Source of the DNA: Anaerolineaceae bacterium
Lineage (GTDB): Bacteria > Chloroflexota > Anaerolineae > Anaerolineales > Villigracilaceae
Length of the DNA stretch: 34,108 nucleotides
Assembly (NCBI GenBank): GCA_009885445.1
Contig: VFKQ01000264.1
Location: forward strand, 1-34,108
Direction: 5' to 3'
Translations under genes and position numbers: made by a program
Notes under the pieces: model-generated
Databases searched by the model: none
What the model saw: only the letters and a program-made list of their open reading frames with translations
Told to the model about the DNA's origin: nothing
In this document: piece after piece, positions 3,930 through 10,788 of the stretch
Numbering within the stretch: the first letter of the stretch is position 1
Layout: every line of letters begins with the position of its first letter

Positions 3930-4795
3930 GCCGTCTCACCACATGCGCGCAAAATGGAGGTGAGACATTCCGCCGCGTCGGCTTTTTCGCGCTCTTCTGT
4001 GCGCCGCGCGCCATAACGCGCAGACTCAAATAAACGAGTCAGGCGCGTAACGGCCTCGTAGGGCAAACCCGCTTTCAGCAGGTGCAGAGCGAACTCGCCA
4101 GCAGTCATCGCCTGCTGACGCTGTAGTCCGCGTGCGTGGGCTACGGCCTCAGTCATGCGCACGTAGGCTTTTAGAATCGCGTCTTCCCAATCGTGTCCGG
4201 CGGATAAATCGTCCAGCGAGGCGCGCGCGGCGGAGGCGATTTCGTTGAGCGGAAGGGCCGCGTCTGTTTGAGTCGCTGAAGTGGCGAAGCGCTGTTTGAA
4301 AAACCAGAGCAGGCCTAAAGTCAAGACGATGAACGCGAACGAGAGCAGATAAATTGTGGCGGGCGAAATGTCGGGGGGCGTAAAAACTGCGGGAGGCGGA
4401 GTAACGTCTGCGTTGCTGGGCGAGGAAAAGTCCATAGCCAAATTGATTGGCATCAAACCAAGTTGAACGCGGTTCTGAATCAGCCAGAAAATTGTGAAGG
4501 CCACGATCATTAAACGGATGAAAGCCAGAAGCCTTTGATTGGGTGAAGTCGGCAGAACCGATTGACGGGTGCGCGCCAATAATATGTAGCGAAACAAAAA
4601 TACCGCCACGATTAGCACGGCCCAAAAAACAAGCTGACTGCGCACCGCGCTGAACGGCGCGGGTCCGCCCTGCGCGGCAGTGACCTTGTCCCATTGCGCG
4701 GGATTGAATTGCACATCATGCAGGCCAGCGGCTAAATCGAGCAGGGCCAGGAGTGCTAAAGAGGCAGTTACAAGGATGGAGGTACGCGAGTTCAT
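3926..4795 (-). CDS. DUF4129 domain membrane protein
   Basis: A 289-residue membrane protein and first gene of the MoxR/DUF58 operon. It has an N-terminal signal-anchor-like segment, further hydrophobic segments near residues 55-75, 85-105 and 150-175, and a C-terminal cytosolic domain. That domain has the DUF4129 pattern (DWEDAILKAYVRMTEAVA...TAGEFALHL...L..LFESARYG). DUF4129 resembles the C-terminal part of transglutaminase-like proteins found with MoxR/DUF58. I chose the ATG at 4795 because the upstream residues are arginine-rich and unlike a membrane protein, and because a TGGTAAAAT promoter-like element ends seven bases before it. Confidence 0.85.
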   Translation of the reverse strand: MNSRTSILVTASLALLALLDLAAGLHDVQFNPAQWDKVTAAQGGPAPFSAVRSQLVFWAVLIVAVFLFRYILLARTRQSVLPTSPNQRLLAFIRLMIVAFTIFWLIQNRVQLGLMPINLAMDFSSPSNADVTPPPAVFTPPDISPATIYLLSFAFIVLTLGLLWFFKQRFATSATQTDAALPLNEIASAARASLDDLSAGHDWEDAILKAYVRMTEAVAHARGLQRQQAMTAGEFALHLLKAGLPYEAVTRLTRLFESARYGARRTEEREKADAAECLTSILRACGETA

Positions 4796-4802
4796 CGCAG
4801 GC

Positions 4803-4811
4803 ATTTTACCA
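4803..4811 (-). promoter_or_regulatory. Extended -10 promoter, probably leaderless
   Basis: On the minus strand TGGTAAAAT (extended -10 form TGn plus TAAAAT) ends seven bases before the ATG of the DUF4129 gene. Transcription would then start at or next to the start codon, giving an mRNA with almost no leader. No Shine-Dalgarno sequence is visible before this ATG, which agrees. Confidence 0.45.
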
Positions 4812-4871
4812 TCCAGACTCGCGCCGCCCATCCCTCTGCAGAGGGGCGAGGTAGCCACTGCGGCTTTGCGG

Positions 4872-4877
4872 TATAAT
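4872..4877 (+). promoter_or_regulatory. Candidate -10 box for glmS
   Basis: A perfect TATAAT, with no good -35 at 16-18 bp. It lies about 60 bp before the ribozyme cleavage site, where the glmS promoter is expected. Transcription would begin near 4884. Confidence 0.5.
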
Positions 4878-4939
4878 CCCGCTCGCACAAAAAAACAAGA
4901 CGCGGAGGTGACGCAACAAATTTATTACGGGAAAAAACA

Positions 4940-5237
4940 GCGCATGGACTTTGGTTAGTTGGGTAGTTCGATAGTTCTATAGTTTACTGGTTGCGCAAAA
5001 CCATGTAACCGAAAAAACTATGTAACTAAATAGCTATGTAACTACTAAAAGTTGACGAGGATGAGGGTTCTCAACTGCAAAGTTGAGTTAATTGACCACT
5101 ACGGTCAAAAAAATCGAATGATCAGCGGATGCCCTCCGGTGCCAGCCAGGCCCGACTTCTTTCCCTCCAGAAAAATAACCTTCACAAAAAAATACCGCGC
5201 GGGCAACCATGCGGACAAAGTTGTGAAGCGTGGCATA
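4940..5237 (+). ncRNA. glmS ribozyme (glucosamine-6-phosphate-sensing)
   Basis: The conserved blocks of the glmS self-cleaving ribozyme appear in order upstream of glmS. AGCGCATGGACTTT at 4939-4952 is the cleavage-site block, with cleavage expected between A4939 and G4940. AAGTTGACGAGGATGAGGG at 5049-5067 closes P1 and opens P2. ATCGA is at 5113-5117, CAGCGGATGCCCTCCGGT at 5123-5140, and GCGGACAAAGTTGTGAAGCG at 5211-5230. GAGGG (5063-5067) pairs with CCCTC (5132-5136). CTTCACAA (5180-5187) pairs with TTGTGAAG (5221-5228). ACTTT pairs with AAAGT to begin P1. In the known class, glucosamine-6-phosphate acts as a coenzyme for cleavage, which destabilises the mRNA and lowers GlmS. The RNA is about 300 nt, longer than usual, because of a roughly 100-nt P1 and a 43-nt insertion between GGGTT and ATCGA. 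The 3' boundary is approximate. Confidence 0.88.
4956..5047. repeat. 8-nt periodic inverted repeat forming ribozyme P1
   Basis: The left arm is a tandem array of TAGTT plus three variable bases (4956-4995, five units, the last TGGTT). The right arm is the complementary array AACTA plus three bases (about 5016-5047, four units, one AGCTA). Together they make a long imperfect stem inside P1 of the ribozyme. It resembles a dispersed intergenic repeat inserted in a stem that tolerates length change. Confidence 0.75.
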
Positions 5238-5256
5238 TTAAAAGAGAATAGAGAAC

Positions 5257-5298
5257 GGAGAAAAGAGAGTAGTTATGACTCCCTGCTCTCTTTTCTCT
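5257..5298 (+). promoter_or_regulatory. Long hairpin just before the glmS ribosome site
   Basis: GGAGAAAAGAGAGTAG (5257-5272) pairs with CTGCTCTCTTTTCTCT (5283-5298) over 16 bp, including G-U wobbles and a 10-base loop. It sits between the ribozyme and the GGAGG site at 5321-5325. No T-run follows, so it is not a typical terminator. It could protect the 5' end of the cleaved mRNA or be a dispersed AG-rich repeat like that near 25480-25520. Confidence 0.6.
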
Positions 5299-5333
5299 AA
5301 TCATCTTCCCGCTCAACTCTGGAGGACTCCCTC

Positions 5334-7175
5334 ATGTGTGGAATCGTCGGTTATATCGGCCCGCGCGACGCGACGCCGATTATTTACAACGGCTTGAAAC
5401 GCCTCGAATATCGCGGCTACGACTCGGCAGGCATCGCCGTGTTGCAAAACGAAAATATCGAAGTGCGGCGTGAGGCGGGCAAACTTTCGATGCTGGGCGG
5501 CTTGCTCGAAACATCCCCGATCAGCGGCAACATTGGCATTGGTCATACGCGCTGGGCTACGCACGGCGCACCCAGCGCGCGGAATGCGCACCCGCATCTC
5601 GGTCAAACCGGACGCGTTGTGGTTGTGCAAAACGGCATCGTCGAAAACTATCTTGAAATCAAAGACGAGTTAACGTCTGAAGGCGTGGATTTCAAATCAG
5701 ACACAGATACCGAAACCATCGTGCATCTCGTGGAGCATTATCTCGCCAGCGGACTCGACCTTGTCGAAGCGGCGCGCAAGACCTTTAAATATATTCGCGG
5801 CGCAAATGTGGTCGTGCTCATGTCTGCGGACGAGCCGGACAAAATCATCGCCGCGCGCATCGGTAATGCTGGCGGGGTCGTGGTGGGTTACGGCGACGGA
5901 GAAATGTTCGCCGCTTCAGACGTGCCTGCCATTTTGGAGCACACGCGCAAAGTGACTTTCCTTGAGTCGCATCAAATGGCCGTGCTGACGCGCGAAGGCG
6001 TCCGCTTTGAAACGATTGACGGAAGCCGAATCCGGCCTGAAATCCAGACCGTGGCGTGGGACCCGATCGCGGCCGAAAAGGGCGAATATCGTCACTTCAT
6101 GCAGAAGGAGATTCAGGAGCAAGTCCGCGCGCTGACAGATACGCTGGCGGGCCGCGTTGATTTCGAAGCCGGAAGAATCCGCCTGCCCGATTTAAATCTC
6201 ACGCCCGAGTTGGCCAAGCGCATCACAAAAATTTACATCACCGCCTGTGGCACCGCCGCGTATGCGGGCATGGTCGGAAAATTTCTGATCGAGAAAATCG
6301 CGCGCATCCCGGTTGAGGTGGAGATTGGTTCCGAGTTTCGTTATCGTGACCCGATCATTGATGCGAACACCGTGGTGCTGGCCATCAGCCAATCCGGCGA
6401 GACGGCGGACACACTGGCCGCGATGGAGGAGGGACGCCGCAAGGGCGCGATTGTGTGGAGCATCGTCAACGCGATTGGTTCGCAGGCCATGCGCATCGCT
6501 GACGGAACCATCGCGATGCAAACCGGACCGGAGATCGGGGTGGCCTCCACGAAGGCTTTCACCGCCCCGTTGATTGACCAATACATGCTGGCGATTCTGC
6601 TGGCAGACATGCGCGGCACGATTGACGAAAAGACGCGCCGCGAGCTTGTGTCTGATCTGCGCCTCGTCCCCGACCTGGCCGGGCGCACGCTAGCCCGCGA
6701 AGCTGACGTAGAAAAAGTGGCGCACGCATTCAAAGATATTCGCAGTTGTCTGTATCTCGGTCGCGGAATCAACATGCCGATTGCATATGAAGGCGCGTTG
6801 AAGTTGAAGGAGATTTCATACATTCATGCCGAGGGCTATCCTGCCGGCGAGATGAAGCACGGCCCCATCGCGTTGATTGACCGCGAGATGCCGGTGTTGT
6901 GCATCGCGCCCAAAGACCCGTGGCATGAAAAGATGATCTCGCAGATTCAACAGGCCAAGGCCCGCGACGGAATCGTGATTGCTGTGGCGACAGACGGCGA
7001 CGAACTGGTGGCTTCGATGGCGGACCATGTGTTGTGGGTTCCCAAAATGCCCTGGCTATTGTCGCCAGTGATCACGGTTCTGCCACTGCAACAGTTGGCT
7101 TATCACATCGCCACCCTGCGCGGCCTCGACGTGGACCAGCCGCGCAATTTGGCGAAGAGTGTGACGGTGGAGTAA
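5334..7175 (+). CDS. glmS: Glutamine-fructose-6-phosphate aminotransferase
   Basis: A 613-residue full-length GlmS. It makes glucosamine-6-phosphate from fructose-6-phosphate and glutamine, the first step to UDP-GlcNAc. Residues 1 to about 220 are the class II glutamine amidotransferase domain, with Cys2 after the initiator Met (MCGIVGYIG) as nucleophile. Two SIS domains follow. The first has SQSGETADT and the second the conserved GALKLKEISYIHAEGYPAGEMKHGP region. The C-terminus NLAKSVTVE is the standard end. A GGAGG at 5321-5325 precedes the ATG by eight bases. The gene is monocistronic, and the ribozyme in its leader implies feedback by its product. Confidence 0.98.
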   Translation: MCGIVGYIGPRDATPIIYNGLKRLEYRGYDSAGIAVLQNENIEVRREAGKLSMLGGLLETSPISGNIGIGHTRWATHGAPSARNAHPHLGQTGRVVVVQNGIVENYLEIKDELTSEGVDFKSDTDTETIVHLVEHYLASGLDLVEAARKTFKYIRGANVVVLMSADEPDKIIAARIGNAGGVVVGYGDGEMFAASDVPAILEHTRKVTFLESHQMAVLTREGVRFETIDGSRIRPEIQTVAWDPIAAEKGEYRHFMQKEIQEQVRALTDTLAGRVDFEAGRIRLPDLNLTPELAKRITKIYITACGTAAYAGMVGKFLIEKIARIPVEVEIGSEFRYRDPIIDANTVVLAISQSGETADTLAAMEEGRRKGAIVWSIVNAIGSQAMRIADGTIAMQTGPEIGVASTKAFTAPLIDQYMLAILLADMRGTIDEKTRRELVSDLRLVPDLAGRTLAREADVEKVAHAFKDIRSCLYLGRGINMPIAYEGALKLKEISYIHAEGYPAGEMKHGPIALIDREMPVLCIAPKDPWHEKMISQIQQAKARDGIVIAVATDGDELVASMADHVLWVPKMPWLLSPVITVLPLQQLAYHIATLRGLDVDQPRNLAKSVTVE

Positions 7176-7349: not shown

Positions 7350-7378
7350 TTGACTTGGCCCTCTAAATTTTGTATAGT
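7350..7378 (+). promoter_or_regulatory. Sigma-70 promoter of ABC operon
   Basis: TTGACT (7350-7355), a 17-bp spacer and TATAGT (7373-7378) form a near-consensus housekeeping promoter. Transcription would start near 7385, leaving a leader of about 85 nt before the ATG at 7470. Confidence 0.8.
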
Positions 7379-7401
7379 AATTCTCGGTCACCCCAAAACA
7401 A

Positions 7402-7437
7402 AAACGGCACTGCCAGAAAAAGATTGGCGTGCCGTTT
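7402..7437 (+). promoter_or_regulatory. Leader hairpin of ABC operon
   Basis: AAACGGCAC (7402-7410) pairs with GTGCCGTTT (7429-7437), with GCCA / TGGC continuing inside after a one-base bulge. The stem ends in TTTCTT. It lies wholly within the predicted leader. It could be an attenuator or a stabilising stem. No anti-terminator partner is obvious. Confidence 0.55.
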
Positions 7438-7469
7438 CTTACGCAAAATCCCCGGGGCAAGGAGCAGAC

Positions 7470-8414
7470 ATGATCCGTGTTACAGATTTAACCAAAGACT
7501 ATGGCCCGCGCAGAGCATTGCACAGCCTGAGCTTTGAAGCCAGGCAAGGTGAGATTATCGGCTTTCTCGGCCCCAACGGCGCCGGCAAGACGACCACCAT
7601 GCGCATCCTCACCGGTTACATGCCACCCACTTCTGGCGAGGCCATTGTGGCCGGTTATAACGTGATGGAGGAATCCATTGAGGTGCGCAAACGCGTGGGC
7701 TACCTGCCCGAGACAGTTCCGCTGTACAACGAAATGGTCGTCCAGGATTTCTTGAAGTTTATGGCCGAGTTGCGCCATATCCCCAACCCTGAAGAAAGCG
7801 TGGCGGACGCACTCAACATGGTGGGCATGACTGAGCGCGCCAAGGGTTACATTGGCAATCTGTCGAAAGGCATGCGCCAGCGTATTGGTCTGGCCCAGGC
7901 GCTGATTCACCGTCCCGAAGTTTTGATTCTCGACGAACCCAGCATCGGCCTCGACCCGGGGCAGGTGGTGGAACTGCGCAAGATTATCCGCGAGATCGGC
8001 AGAGAGCGCACGGTGTTGCTTTCCACGCACATCCTTTCGGAAGCCCAGCAAATTTGTGACCGAGTCATCATCATCAACAAGGGCAAAATCGTCGTGGAGG
8101 ATACGCCCGAGAATCTGCAAGCCCGCCTCGTGGGCGGCGAGCGCGTCGTCCTGCGTGTGCGCGGTGATGCGGCGGAACTCTCAGCGAAGATAGAGCAGGT
8201 GAAGGGCGTCCAACGGCTTAAGTCGAACCCCGATGGGAGTCTCGAGTTTGAATATCTGCCCGGGCACGACGTACGTCCTGAAGTGGCCAAGATCATTACT
8301 AACGGCGGCTACGAGATGCTCGAAATGAAAACCTTGAGCCTGAGCCTTGAGGATATCTTCCTTGAATTAACCAAGGAACAAGTTGTTACGCCCAAAAAGA
8401 AAAGACGGTTGTGA
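7470..8414 (+). CDS. ABC transporter ATP-binding protein
   Basis: A 314-residue ABC ATPase of the CcmA/NatA/GldA type. Walker A GPNGAGKT is at residues 34-41, signature LSKGMRQ at 131-137, Walker B VLILDE at 151-156, and the H-loop is in LLSTHIL. The C-terminal third is a DrrA-like extension. I chose the ATG at 7470 because AAGGAG lies six bases upstream and the protein then starts with the usual MIRVTDLTKDYG. It is the first gene of a four-gene operon with a permease, a GldG-like protein and a DUF4340 protein. The cargo is unknown. In other phyla the homologous GldA-F-G set is tied to gliding or surface secretion. Confidence 0.95.
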   Translation: MIRVTDLTKDYGPRRALHSLSFEARQGEIIGFLGPNGAGKTTTMRILTGYMPPTSGEAIVAGYNVMEESIEVRKRVGYLPETVPLYNEMVVQDFLKFMAELRHIPNPEESVADALNMVGMTERAKGYIGNLSKGMRQRIGLAQALIHRPEVLILDEPSIGLDPGQVVELRKIIREIGRERTVLLSTHILSEAQQICDRVIIINKGKIVVEDTPENLQARLVGGERVVLRVRGDAAELSAKIEQVKGVQRLKSNPDGSLEFEYLPGHDVRPEVAKIITNGGYEMLEMKTLSLSLEDIFLELTKEQVVTPKKKRRL

Positions 8415-8422
8415 GGTTTCCC

Positions 8423-9178
8423 ATGAAAAATATTTGGACCATCGCAAAACGCGAATACGATAACTACTTTGCCAGCCCGCTTGCTTACGTGATCGCGGCT
8501 GGTTTGCTCTTTCTTCTCGGAGGAATCTTCCTCATCATCCTGCAAGGTTCCATCCAGCAGGCTATCTTTGGCGGCGGCACTCCCGTGGACATTGGTTTTA
8601 TAAATCAATGGTTCTACTATCTGTTGCTATGGACAGTCCCCGCGCTAACCATGCGCCTGATCTCGGACGAGAATCGCACCGGCACGCTCGAGCTTCTGCT
8701 CACGGCCCCGGTGCGCGACTTTGAATTGGTCATCGGCAAGTGGCTGGGCAGTTTCTTGTATATTCTCAGCGTGATTGGCGTCAGCTTCATCTTTGCCATC
8801 GTGGCCAACTATCTGGCCGAGCCGGGCATTGACCAGGTGAAGATGATGTCTTCGTACCTGGGTTTGATTCTGATTGCCGGCGCACTGCTGGCGTTGGGTA
8901 CGGGCATTTCTGCATTGTTCAATAATCAGATTGCGGCCTTCTTTGTCACGCTCGCGCTCTTCATTGTTCTGTGGTTGCTAATCGGAATCCCGGCCAGTTT
9001 TTTCCCCAGCAATCCGGCCATCGGTGACGTGTTCCGCTATCTTCAAATCGGCAATCATTACGAGAGCACTTTCAATGCCGGTGTGCTTTACCTTTCAGAT
9101 GTAATTTACTTTCTCAGCCTGATCGCCATTGGCCTGTTCACCGGCGTCACGGCTGTTGACTCGCGGAGATGGCGCTAA
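8423..9178 (+). CDS. ABC transporter permease (GldF-like)
   Basis: A 251-residue integral membrane protein with six hydrophobic segments, spread from residue 22 to the C-terminus, of the ABC-2 permease family. The sequence FYYLLLWTVPALTMRLISDENRTGTLELLLTAPV is the ABC-2 hallmark between TM2 and TM3. The start is ATG 8423, with GAGG seven bases upstream. A GTG at 8411 would overlap the ATPase stop but lacks a ribosome site. The gene lies nine bases after the ATPase and shares TAATG with the next gene, so the operon is translationally coupled. Confidence 0.93.
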   Translation: MKNIWTIAKREYDNYFASPLAYVIAAGLLFLLGGIFLIILQGSIQQAIFGGGTPVDIGFINQWFYYLLLWTVPALTMRLISDENRTGTLELLLTAPVRDFELVIGKWLGSFLYILSVIGVSFIFAIVANYLAEPGIDQVKMMSSYLGLILIAGALLALGTGISALFNNQIAAFFVTLALFIVLWLLIGIPASFFPSNPAIGDVFRYLQIGNHYESTFNAGVLYLSDVIYFLSLIAIGLFTGVTAVDSRRWR

Positions 9179-10788
9179 TGAATAACGGACGCAACTACAA
9201 CTACTCCTACCTCACACTGGCGCTGGCTGGAGTGGCGCTGATCGTCACCCTGCTGGCATGGTTCGCCAAACTTGCAATCGGCAATGGGTTCTTGCTCTCG
9301 TTCAACCCCGACACCGTGGACTTGACCCTGCAAATCAGCGGCATGATCACCGTAATCAGCGCCGCCGCATATGCTTTCATGGAACCAGACGCGGTGCGCG
9401 ATTTTATGGGCACGCGGCAGGCGCGTTATGGCGCTAATCTGACGGTGATGACGTTGGCCTTCGTGGGTATTATCATCTTTGCCAACAGCATCGTTTACTC
9501 AGCCGATAATCCGCTCAAGTTGGATCTGACCGAGAGCAAAGAAAACACGCTTAGCCCCGAATTGACTCGCGCACTGGATACCCTGCCCGCCAAACTCACG
9601 GCCACAGCCTTCTTTTCTTCGCAGGCCTCTGATATAGAGGCGCGTAAACTCTTACAAAGCATGAAAGCCAGCGCCGGCGGAAAATTTGACTATAGCTTTG
9701 TCAACCCAGATGCAAACCCTGTGGCGGCCAAAGCCGCCGGAGTGACGGGCGATGGCAAAATTGCCCTCGAAATGAACGGCCGCACCGAAGTAGCGGACTA
9801 CGCCGACGAAGGCGAAATTTTGCTGGCCATAGTGCGCATCCTCAACCCTGAAAATCGCACGGTGTATTTCCTCATCGGTCACGGTGAAGCAGATATTGAG
9901 GGCAACGGCGACCGCACCATGACCCGCGCCAAAGAAACTCTTGAAAGCAAAAATTACACCGTTAAGACGCTCAACTTGCTGGCCGAAAATAAAATCCCCG
10001 CCGACGCAAAAGCCATCATCATCGCCGGCCCCACCAAGCCCGTCTCGGCCAACGAAGTCAGCTTGCTGGTGAACTATGCCCTGCACGGCGGGGCGTTGAT
10101 TGTCATGGAAGACCCGACGGCCATCAATGATTTCGGCGACGCCATTGATCCCTTGGCGAATTCCTTAAGTCAAATCTGGGGCTTGCGTCTGCGCAATGAC
10201 TTTGTAGTGGATACCGCCAATACCAGCAATGTCGGCGATGTAATTGGCACAAACATGGATTTCAACCACCCGATCACACGCACCATGAACCCCACTCTGC
10301 CGCCCATCATGCACCTGGCGCGCAGTATCGAGATTCTTCCGCGCGAGGGTGTCACCCAATCGGCGCTGGTGCAAACCAGCCTCGGTTATCGCTCGTGGGG
10401 CGAAACAGATTTTACACCGCTGAAAGACCCCAGCGCCGCCCTCGCCTTTGACGAGGGGACCGACGCCGCCGGCCCCGTTGTAGTGGCCGCCGCCATCGAA
10501 AACGCCAACGGCCTCGGCCGCGTAGTCGTCATCGGCAACTCCTTCTTCGCCGACGATCAAGGCTTTGACGTGTACGGCAACGGCGACTTTTTCGTCAACA
10601 GCGTAGACTGGGCCGTGGGCCAGGAAGACACCATTGGCCTGACCCCCAAGCCTCAGATTCCGCGCACGTTAAAGTTACCCTCCGCCAACGTGCTGTTGCT
10701 CATTCAAGCCGGTCTGCTGTGCTTAATTCCCGGCCTCATTCTTGGCTTGGGCGTCTATGCCTGGGCCGTGCGCCGCAAACGAGGCTAA
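9178..10788 (+). CDS. GldG-like ABC auxiliary protein
   Basis: A 536-residue protein with three N-terminal hydrophobic segments, a large extracytoplasmic region, and one C-terminal TM followed by RRKRG. The region after the third TM (LDLTESKENTLSPELTRALDTLPAKLTATAFFS) is the conserved start of the GldG-type domain. FLIGHGEADIEG and a later VVIGNSFFADDQGF are family hallmarks. It probably supplies the periplasmic part of the ABC complex. ATG 9178 overlaps the permease stop (TAATG). ATG 9169 is in frame but its ribosome site would be one base away. The DUF4340 gene starts with no gap after this stop. Confidence 0.9.
   Translation: MNNGRNYNYSYLTLALAGVALIVTLLAWFAKLAIGNGFLLSFNPDTVDLTLQISGMITVISAAAYAFMEPDAVRDFMGTRQARYGANLTVMTLAFVGIIIFANSIVYSADNPLKLDLTESKENTLSPELTRALDTLPAKLTATAFFSSQASDIEARKLLQSMKASAGGKFDYSFVNPDANPVAAKAAGVTGDGKIALEMNGRTEVADYADEGEILLAIVRILNPENRTVYFLIGHGEADIEGNGDRTMTRAKETLESKNYTVKTLNLLAENKIPADAKAIIIAGPTKPVSANEVSLLVNYALHGGALIVMEDPTAINDFGDAIDPLANSLSQIWGLRLRNDFVVDTANTSNVGDVIGTNMDFNHPITRTMNPTLPPIMHLARSIEILPREGVTQSALVQTSLGYRSWGETDFTPLKDPSAALAFDEGTDAAGPVVVAAAIENANGLGRVVVIGNSFFADDQGFDVYGNGDFFVNSVDWAVGQEDTIGLTPKPQIPRTLKLPSANVLLLIQAGLLCLIPGLILGLGVYAWAVRRKRG

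Follow-up and report, generated by a model that had tools for sequence, protein, structure and literature searches.

The glmS ribozymes are the textbook case of one ribozyme acting on one gene. McCown et al. 2011, in RNA, reportedly found all but two of 463 representatives in glmS mRNAs, and is also said to have described variants with additional core stems in Deinococcus-Thermus. The ribozymes of Rfam family RF00234, such as those of B. subtilis, B. anthracis and T. tengcongensis, have the motifs AGCGC, GACGAGG, UCGA and GCGGA, stems P1 to P4 together with P2.1, P2.2 and P3.1, a GNRA loop in P4, and a position in the glmS leader, all of which recur in an element within the 34,108-nucleotide stretch of DNA analysed here (the window). 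The element differs from these ribozymes in its P1 of about 107 nt, in two stems (P2a and P2b) placed between the P2 5' strand and UCGA, and in a J3/4 linker carrying an anti-Shine-Dalgarno sequence that covaries with the Shine-Dalgarno (SD) region of glmS. Like the Deinococcus-Thermus variants it has additional stems in the catalytic core, though possibly at another site, and the window's variant is in Chloroflexota.

The original prediction placed a glmS ribozyme directly upstream of glmS, with its conserved blocks in the right order and the P1, P2 and P4 pairings kept, and this is borne out. When positions 4700-5400 were searched with cmscan, RF00234 covered window 4928-5238 on the + strand (36.9 bits, E = 5.1e-7), the alignment spanning the full model (positions 1-167 of 167) with approximately 100 nt inserted in P1, and glmS begins 95 nt downstream of the match in the right orientation, so that the ribozyme sits in the glmS leader. 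Every block quoted in the prediction was found, in order and on the + strand; the three stems can be drawn, as can P3, P3.1 and the core pseudoknots; and because the motif starts at A4939, cleavage is predicted at A4939|G4940, in agreement with the site proposed earlier. On the Rfam search that had been suggested as a check, the full-length match and its E-value stood, whereas the score fell 0.1 bits below the gathering cut-off of 37 bits, and a default scan of the window at that cut-off lists no RF00234. The same element scores 31.3 bits in a search of the whole source genome (3.0 Mb, 404 contigs), and relatives in its family reach 45-50 bits. A second covariance model, R1, was built from the variant ribozymes of relatives with the window's sequence excluded, and scores the element at 66 bits in a whole-genome search (E = 5.3e-13). 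The features of the leader and its gene are as follows.

4872-4877, + strand: TATAAT, an exact motif and possible -10 element of a leader promoter
4939-4946, + strand: AGCGCAUG, predicted cleavage site and P2.2 5' strand (4941-4943); from the RF00234 alignment, invariant in 20 sequences
4947-5053, + strand: P1, its base formed by 4947-4952 with 5048-5053; fold of 4948-5052 at -33.9 kcal/mol, z -4.8
5054-5060, + strand: GACGAGG, P2.1 5' strand, including G5060; invariant
5063-5067, + strand: P2 5' strand GAGGG, partner 5132-5136; paired in 100% of cells, with changes on both sides in 2 of 5 pairs
5070-5087, + strand: P2a, additional core stem with loop GCAA; 97.9% paired, 6 of 7 pairs changing on both sides
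5092-5108, + strand: P2b, second additional core stem, variable in length; 88.6% paired, 6 of 6 pairs changing on both sides
5114-5117, + strand: UCGA, P2.1 3' strand, including U5114; invariant
5125-5132, + strand: GCGGAUGC, P2.2 3' strand and beginning of the P2 3' strand; GCGGA invariant
5137-5154, + strand: P3, with loop GCCA (5145-5148); 96.7% of cells paired
5160-5171, + strand: J3/4 linker UUUCCCUCCAGA, anti-SD element, 5164-5171 being complementary to 5318-5325; from its occurrence in the family and covariation
5180-5228, + strand: P4 (5180-5187 with 5221-5228, 5195-5202 with 5207-5214), with GNRA loop GCAA (5203-5206) and an A-rich internal loop; from the RF00234 alignment and pair counts
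5231-5234, + strand: P3.1 3' strand UGGC, pseudoknot with GCCA 5145-5148; 96.1% of cells paired, almost invariant
5246-5302, + strand: imperfect inverted repeat in the spacer from ribozyme to glmS, with matches to its arms elsewhere in the genome
5318-5325, + strand: glmS SD region UCUGGAGG, from sequence
5334-7175, + strand: glmS, glutamine-fructose-6-phosphate transaminase, 613 aa; TIGR01135 763 bits, cut-off 418

The structure was tested on the window aligned to 19 relatives. Its pairs form in 92.6% of cells across the 20 sequences, compared to 77.3% for shuffled and 31-45% for slid controls; both sides change in 34 of the 51 pairs. Compensatory changes are carried by P1, P2, P3 and P4, the proximal part of the last being paired in 72.6% of cells; P2.1 (5056-5057 with 5115-5116) and P2.2 (4941-4943 with 5125-5127) are 100% paired but invariant, and hence carry no covariation signal. 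The four core motifs are present in the window and invariant throughout the alignment, and by the B. subtilis and T. tengcongensis correspondences given in PMC11602151, the T. tengcongensis counterparts are the catalytic G40 for G5060 and U51 for U5114. P2a and P2b are common to the relatives and covary strongly. Elsewhere in Chloroflexota, the copies with the best scores mostly lack them: GACGAGG and GCGGA stand about 28-30 nt apart there, as against roughly 70 nt or more in Anaerolineae and in a few other cases. The usual P4 domain seems to be missing from several sister-family glmS ribozymes (L135, L137, L139, L142, L143).

The window's element belongs to the glmS class of self-cleaving ribozymes. 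A chance resemblance with no ribozyme behind it would be consistent with the empty default scan, but is refuted by the R1 match and the alignment pairing test; E-values of 5e-7 (Rfam) and 5e-13 (independent model), the site upstream of glmS and the orthologous elements found throughout the family make it vanishingly improbable, much as the original prediction had judged.

Little surprise attaches to the phylum. The prediction of a probable Chloroflexota source agrees with the closest GlmS proteins (82% identity), which belong to Chloroflexi MAGs, but the rarity outside Firmicutes that it implied is not supported: RF00234 matches 136 of 400 Chloroflexota genomes at E <= 0.01 and exceeds the Rfam cut-off in 110, and the mere presence of a glmS ribozyme here is therefore unsurprising and in Chloroflexota ordinary. 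Under strict filters, 117 of 152 genomes in the window's family have a match, and under laxer filters a glmS-class ribozyme occurs in 40 of 40 sampled genomes; the sister family, which we take to be Anaerolineaceae, has RF00234 matches in 113 of 147 genomes, and in many of these there are two. Viewed together with its relatives, the element is a variant of the class whose linker is predicted to pair with the SD, and its genome holds a second subclass at the head of a glutamine-synthetase operon. The long P1 hairpin, the two additional core stems, the J3/4-SD complementarity and, necessarily, the second ribozyme elsewhere in the genome are absent from the prediction.

P1 is the second longest among 68 loci (range 16-137 nt), and its interior (window 4955-5050) resembles a dispersed repeat of the source genome with an 8-nt unit, of TAGTTNNN type, which has partial matches at about a dozen other places in that genome. 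The simplest reading is that the repeat may have spread into a ribozyme segment in which changes in length are tolerated. Were the insertion instead to have inactivated the ribozyme, leaving only an untranslated region, one might expect both the repeat-like interior of the 107-nt P1 and the RF00234 score just under the cut-off. Such decay is nevertheless improbable, as the core is intact, along with P2.1, P2.2, P3.1 and P4, the inserted sequence sits in the distal P1 loop and folds as an extension of that stem, and the core is also kept in relatives with a P1 of 61-137 nt. In a scan of the window's glmS leader, we found no full sigma-70 promoter and no promoter-like or terminator-like site.

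Of 90 loci in the window's family, 85 have a J3/4 linker of the form UUUCCCUCC, which is complementary to the SD of glmS; the same element occurs in only one of 43 glmS leaders in the sister family. The window's own duplex is 8 bp long, for which comparison with shuffled J3/4 gives P = 0.0008. For the base that follows CCUCC and the one that precedes GGAGG, the combinations are A-U (50), G-C (15), A-C (18) and G-U (2), with the same trend at the next position, giving Fisher p values of 4.5e-6 and 7.7e-7 for the two flanking positions. Since kinship inflates such tests, we also simulated the evolution of the SD side on a tree built from GlmS N-termini, which returned P = 0.021 and 0/4000 (<0.0003) for the flanking positions and P = 0.98 for the next position outward, used as a control; a count of co-changes on the same branch gave P = 0.06 and 0.13, which is suggestive only. 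The complementarity might be incidental, given that CCUCC is complementary to any GGAGG, any pyrimidine-rich linker fits an SD, and J3/4 could be conserved for the ribozyme fold. Among 89 loci, 20 keep a match of <=5 bp, as nearly any SD sequence would give, the branch-based test is marginal, and the glnA-type leaders described below have a J3/4 CCCUUCC that is matched by a downstream GGAAGGG, which is not an SD, in 59 of 63 cases (flank covariation there is weak, with three of four flanking positions not convincing). We consider this explanation doubtful while giving it real weight, because both bases next to CCUCC covary with the two before GGAGG, with double swaps from A-U/G-C to G-C/A-U on two separate branches, because the simulation, which corrects for the tree, reaches significance at each of these positions but not at the control, and because the element is missing in 42 of the 43 sister-family leaders.

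As a functional pairing, the J3/4-SD duplex would probably act as a constitutive brake on translation or allow ribosome loading and ribozyme folding to affect each other. It would outlast cleavage, because cleavage lies 5' of the ribozyme. PMC2258182 describes the binding pocket of the glmS ribozyme as preformed, so that we do not expect this layer to depend on the ligand. Like translational riboswitches that sequester the SD, the leader has a predicted pairing with the SD that is supported by covariation, yet we do not class the element among them, since ligand-dependent access to the SD is not expected.

The source genome holds a second, variant ribozyme on another contig (C364; locus L409, G000:C364:1-4300), which R1 scores at 81.4 bits. 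Its 5' end is cut by the start of the contig, and it is followed by a terminator-like hairpin, an Ada-like gene, an EamA transporter gene and glnA. RF00234 gives the truncated copy only 20 bits; its identification as a glmS-class variant is made from R1, the core motifs and synteny. A weak RF00234 match elsewhere in the genome (L002, G000:C347, 15 bits) lacks core motifs, and we discarded it. Most relatives have such a second copy: in the window's family it heads ada-eamA-glnA or eamA-glnA, and in the sister family it stands upstream of GlnA (TIGR00653, 523-556 bits). The fetched loci, once de-duplicated, contain 171 ribozymes in front of glmS and 47 in front of glnA. A full-text literature search, outside which the main 2011 survey falls, so that earlier reports are possible, returned no glmS ribozyme on glnA or in Chloroflexota.

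The glnA-type variant of Anaerolineae shares with the window the core motifs and the double-pseudoknot layout, and some copies score over the RF00234 cut-off. It differs in its core AGCG-R-CUG, with one additional nucleotide before P1 and an invariant UCAGCGG opposite, allowing a possible CUG/CAG pairing in P2.2, in the terminator-like hairpin that usually follows, and in the operons that it heads. The AGCG-R-CUG core is found in the glnA leaders of Anaerolineaceae (L134, L136, L138, L141, L132, L133 and L207-L286), whereas the glmS copy in the same genomes keeps the ordinary AGCGC(A/C)UG; the P2.2 variant may leave room for an altered ligand or altered kinetics. The glnA-linked copies covary well, being 97.6% paired against 86.4%, with 23 of 32 pairs changing on both sides. 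Between ribozyme and operon, the hairpin was found in 42 of the 43 leaders from the window's family and 25 of the 49 from the sister family, compared to 2-3% of shuffles, and has a conserved, GCAUGCCC-type sequence with GGAAGGG ahead of it (for example in L221, L376 and L388). Four further copies lie upstream of glutamate-synthase-like genes (L420/L458, L438 and L457, and L427 after a FAD/Fe-S oxidase gene). PF01645 was found in the gene at L420, and NCBIfam calls none of these genes a GltB equivalog; L444, with 35% local identity and no family match, was dropped as a GltB-like candidate.

We propose that GlcN6P, the product of GlmS, would bind the preformed core and so bring about cleavage at the predicted site, after which the downstream fragment with its 5'-OH would be degraded, probably by RNase J, and GlmS synthesis would fall. 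RNase J is the decay enzyme that acts after glmS cleavage in B. subtilis, and its gene is present in the source genome (TIGR00649, 580 bits, cut-off 400). With the J3/4 linker paired to the glmS SD, the folded ribozyme would probably lower translation as well, adding a translational layer to a ribozyme known for acting through mRNA cleavage. The second copy on ada-eamA-glnA probably puts glutamine supply under related control: GlmS consumes glutamine and GlnA makes it, and a shared GlcN6P signal would lower both. That a GlcN6P-activated ribozyme represses glmS, with an SD-masking layer and as part of a wider glutamine-centred regulon, is in our judgement very probable. A more elaborate version, in which the canonical copy controls glmS throughout an Anaerolineales regulon and the AGCG-R-CUG subclass, with an intrinsic terminator coupled to it, regulates glutamine synthetase as well as, in some genomes, a glutamate-synthase-like gene, perhaps in response to a ligand other than GlcN6P, seems unlikely. 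Should the second copies prove active, nitrogen assimilation in a large bacterial group, most of it uncultured, would also be governed by this class, and the natural variants of the core would offer a direct test of what determines ligand specificity.

Downstream of glmS, a gene resembling that for GldA (327 bits, under the equivalog cut-off) lies with others resembling those for GldF and GldG in a set of ABC transporter genes at window 7350-10788.
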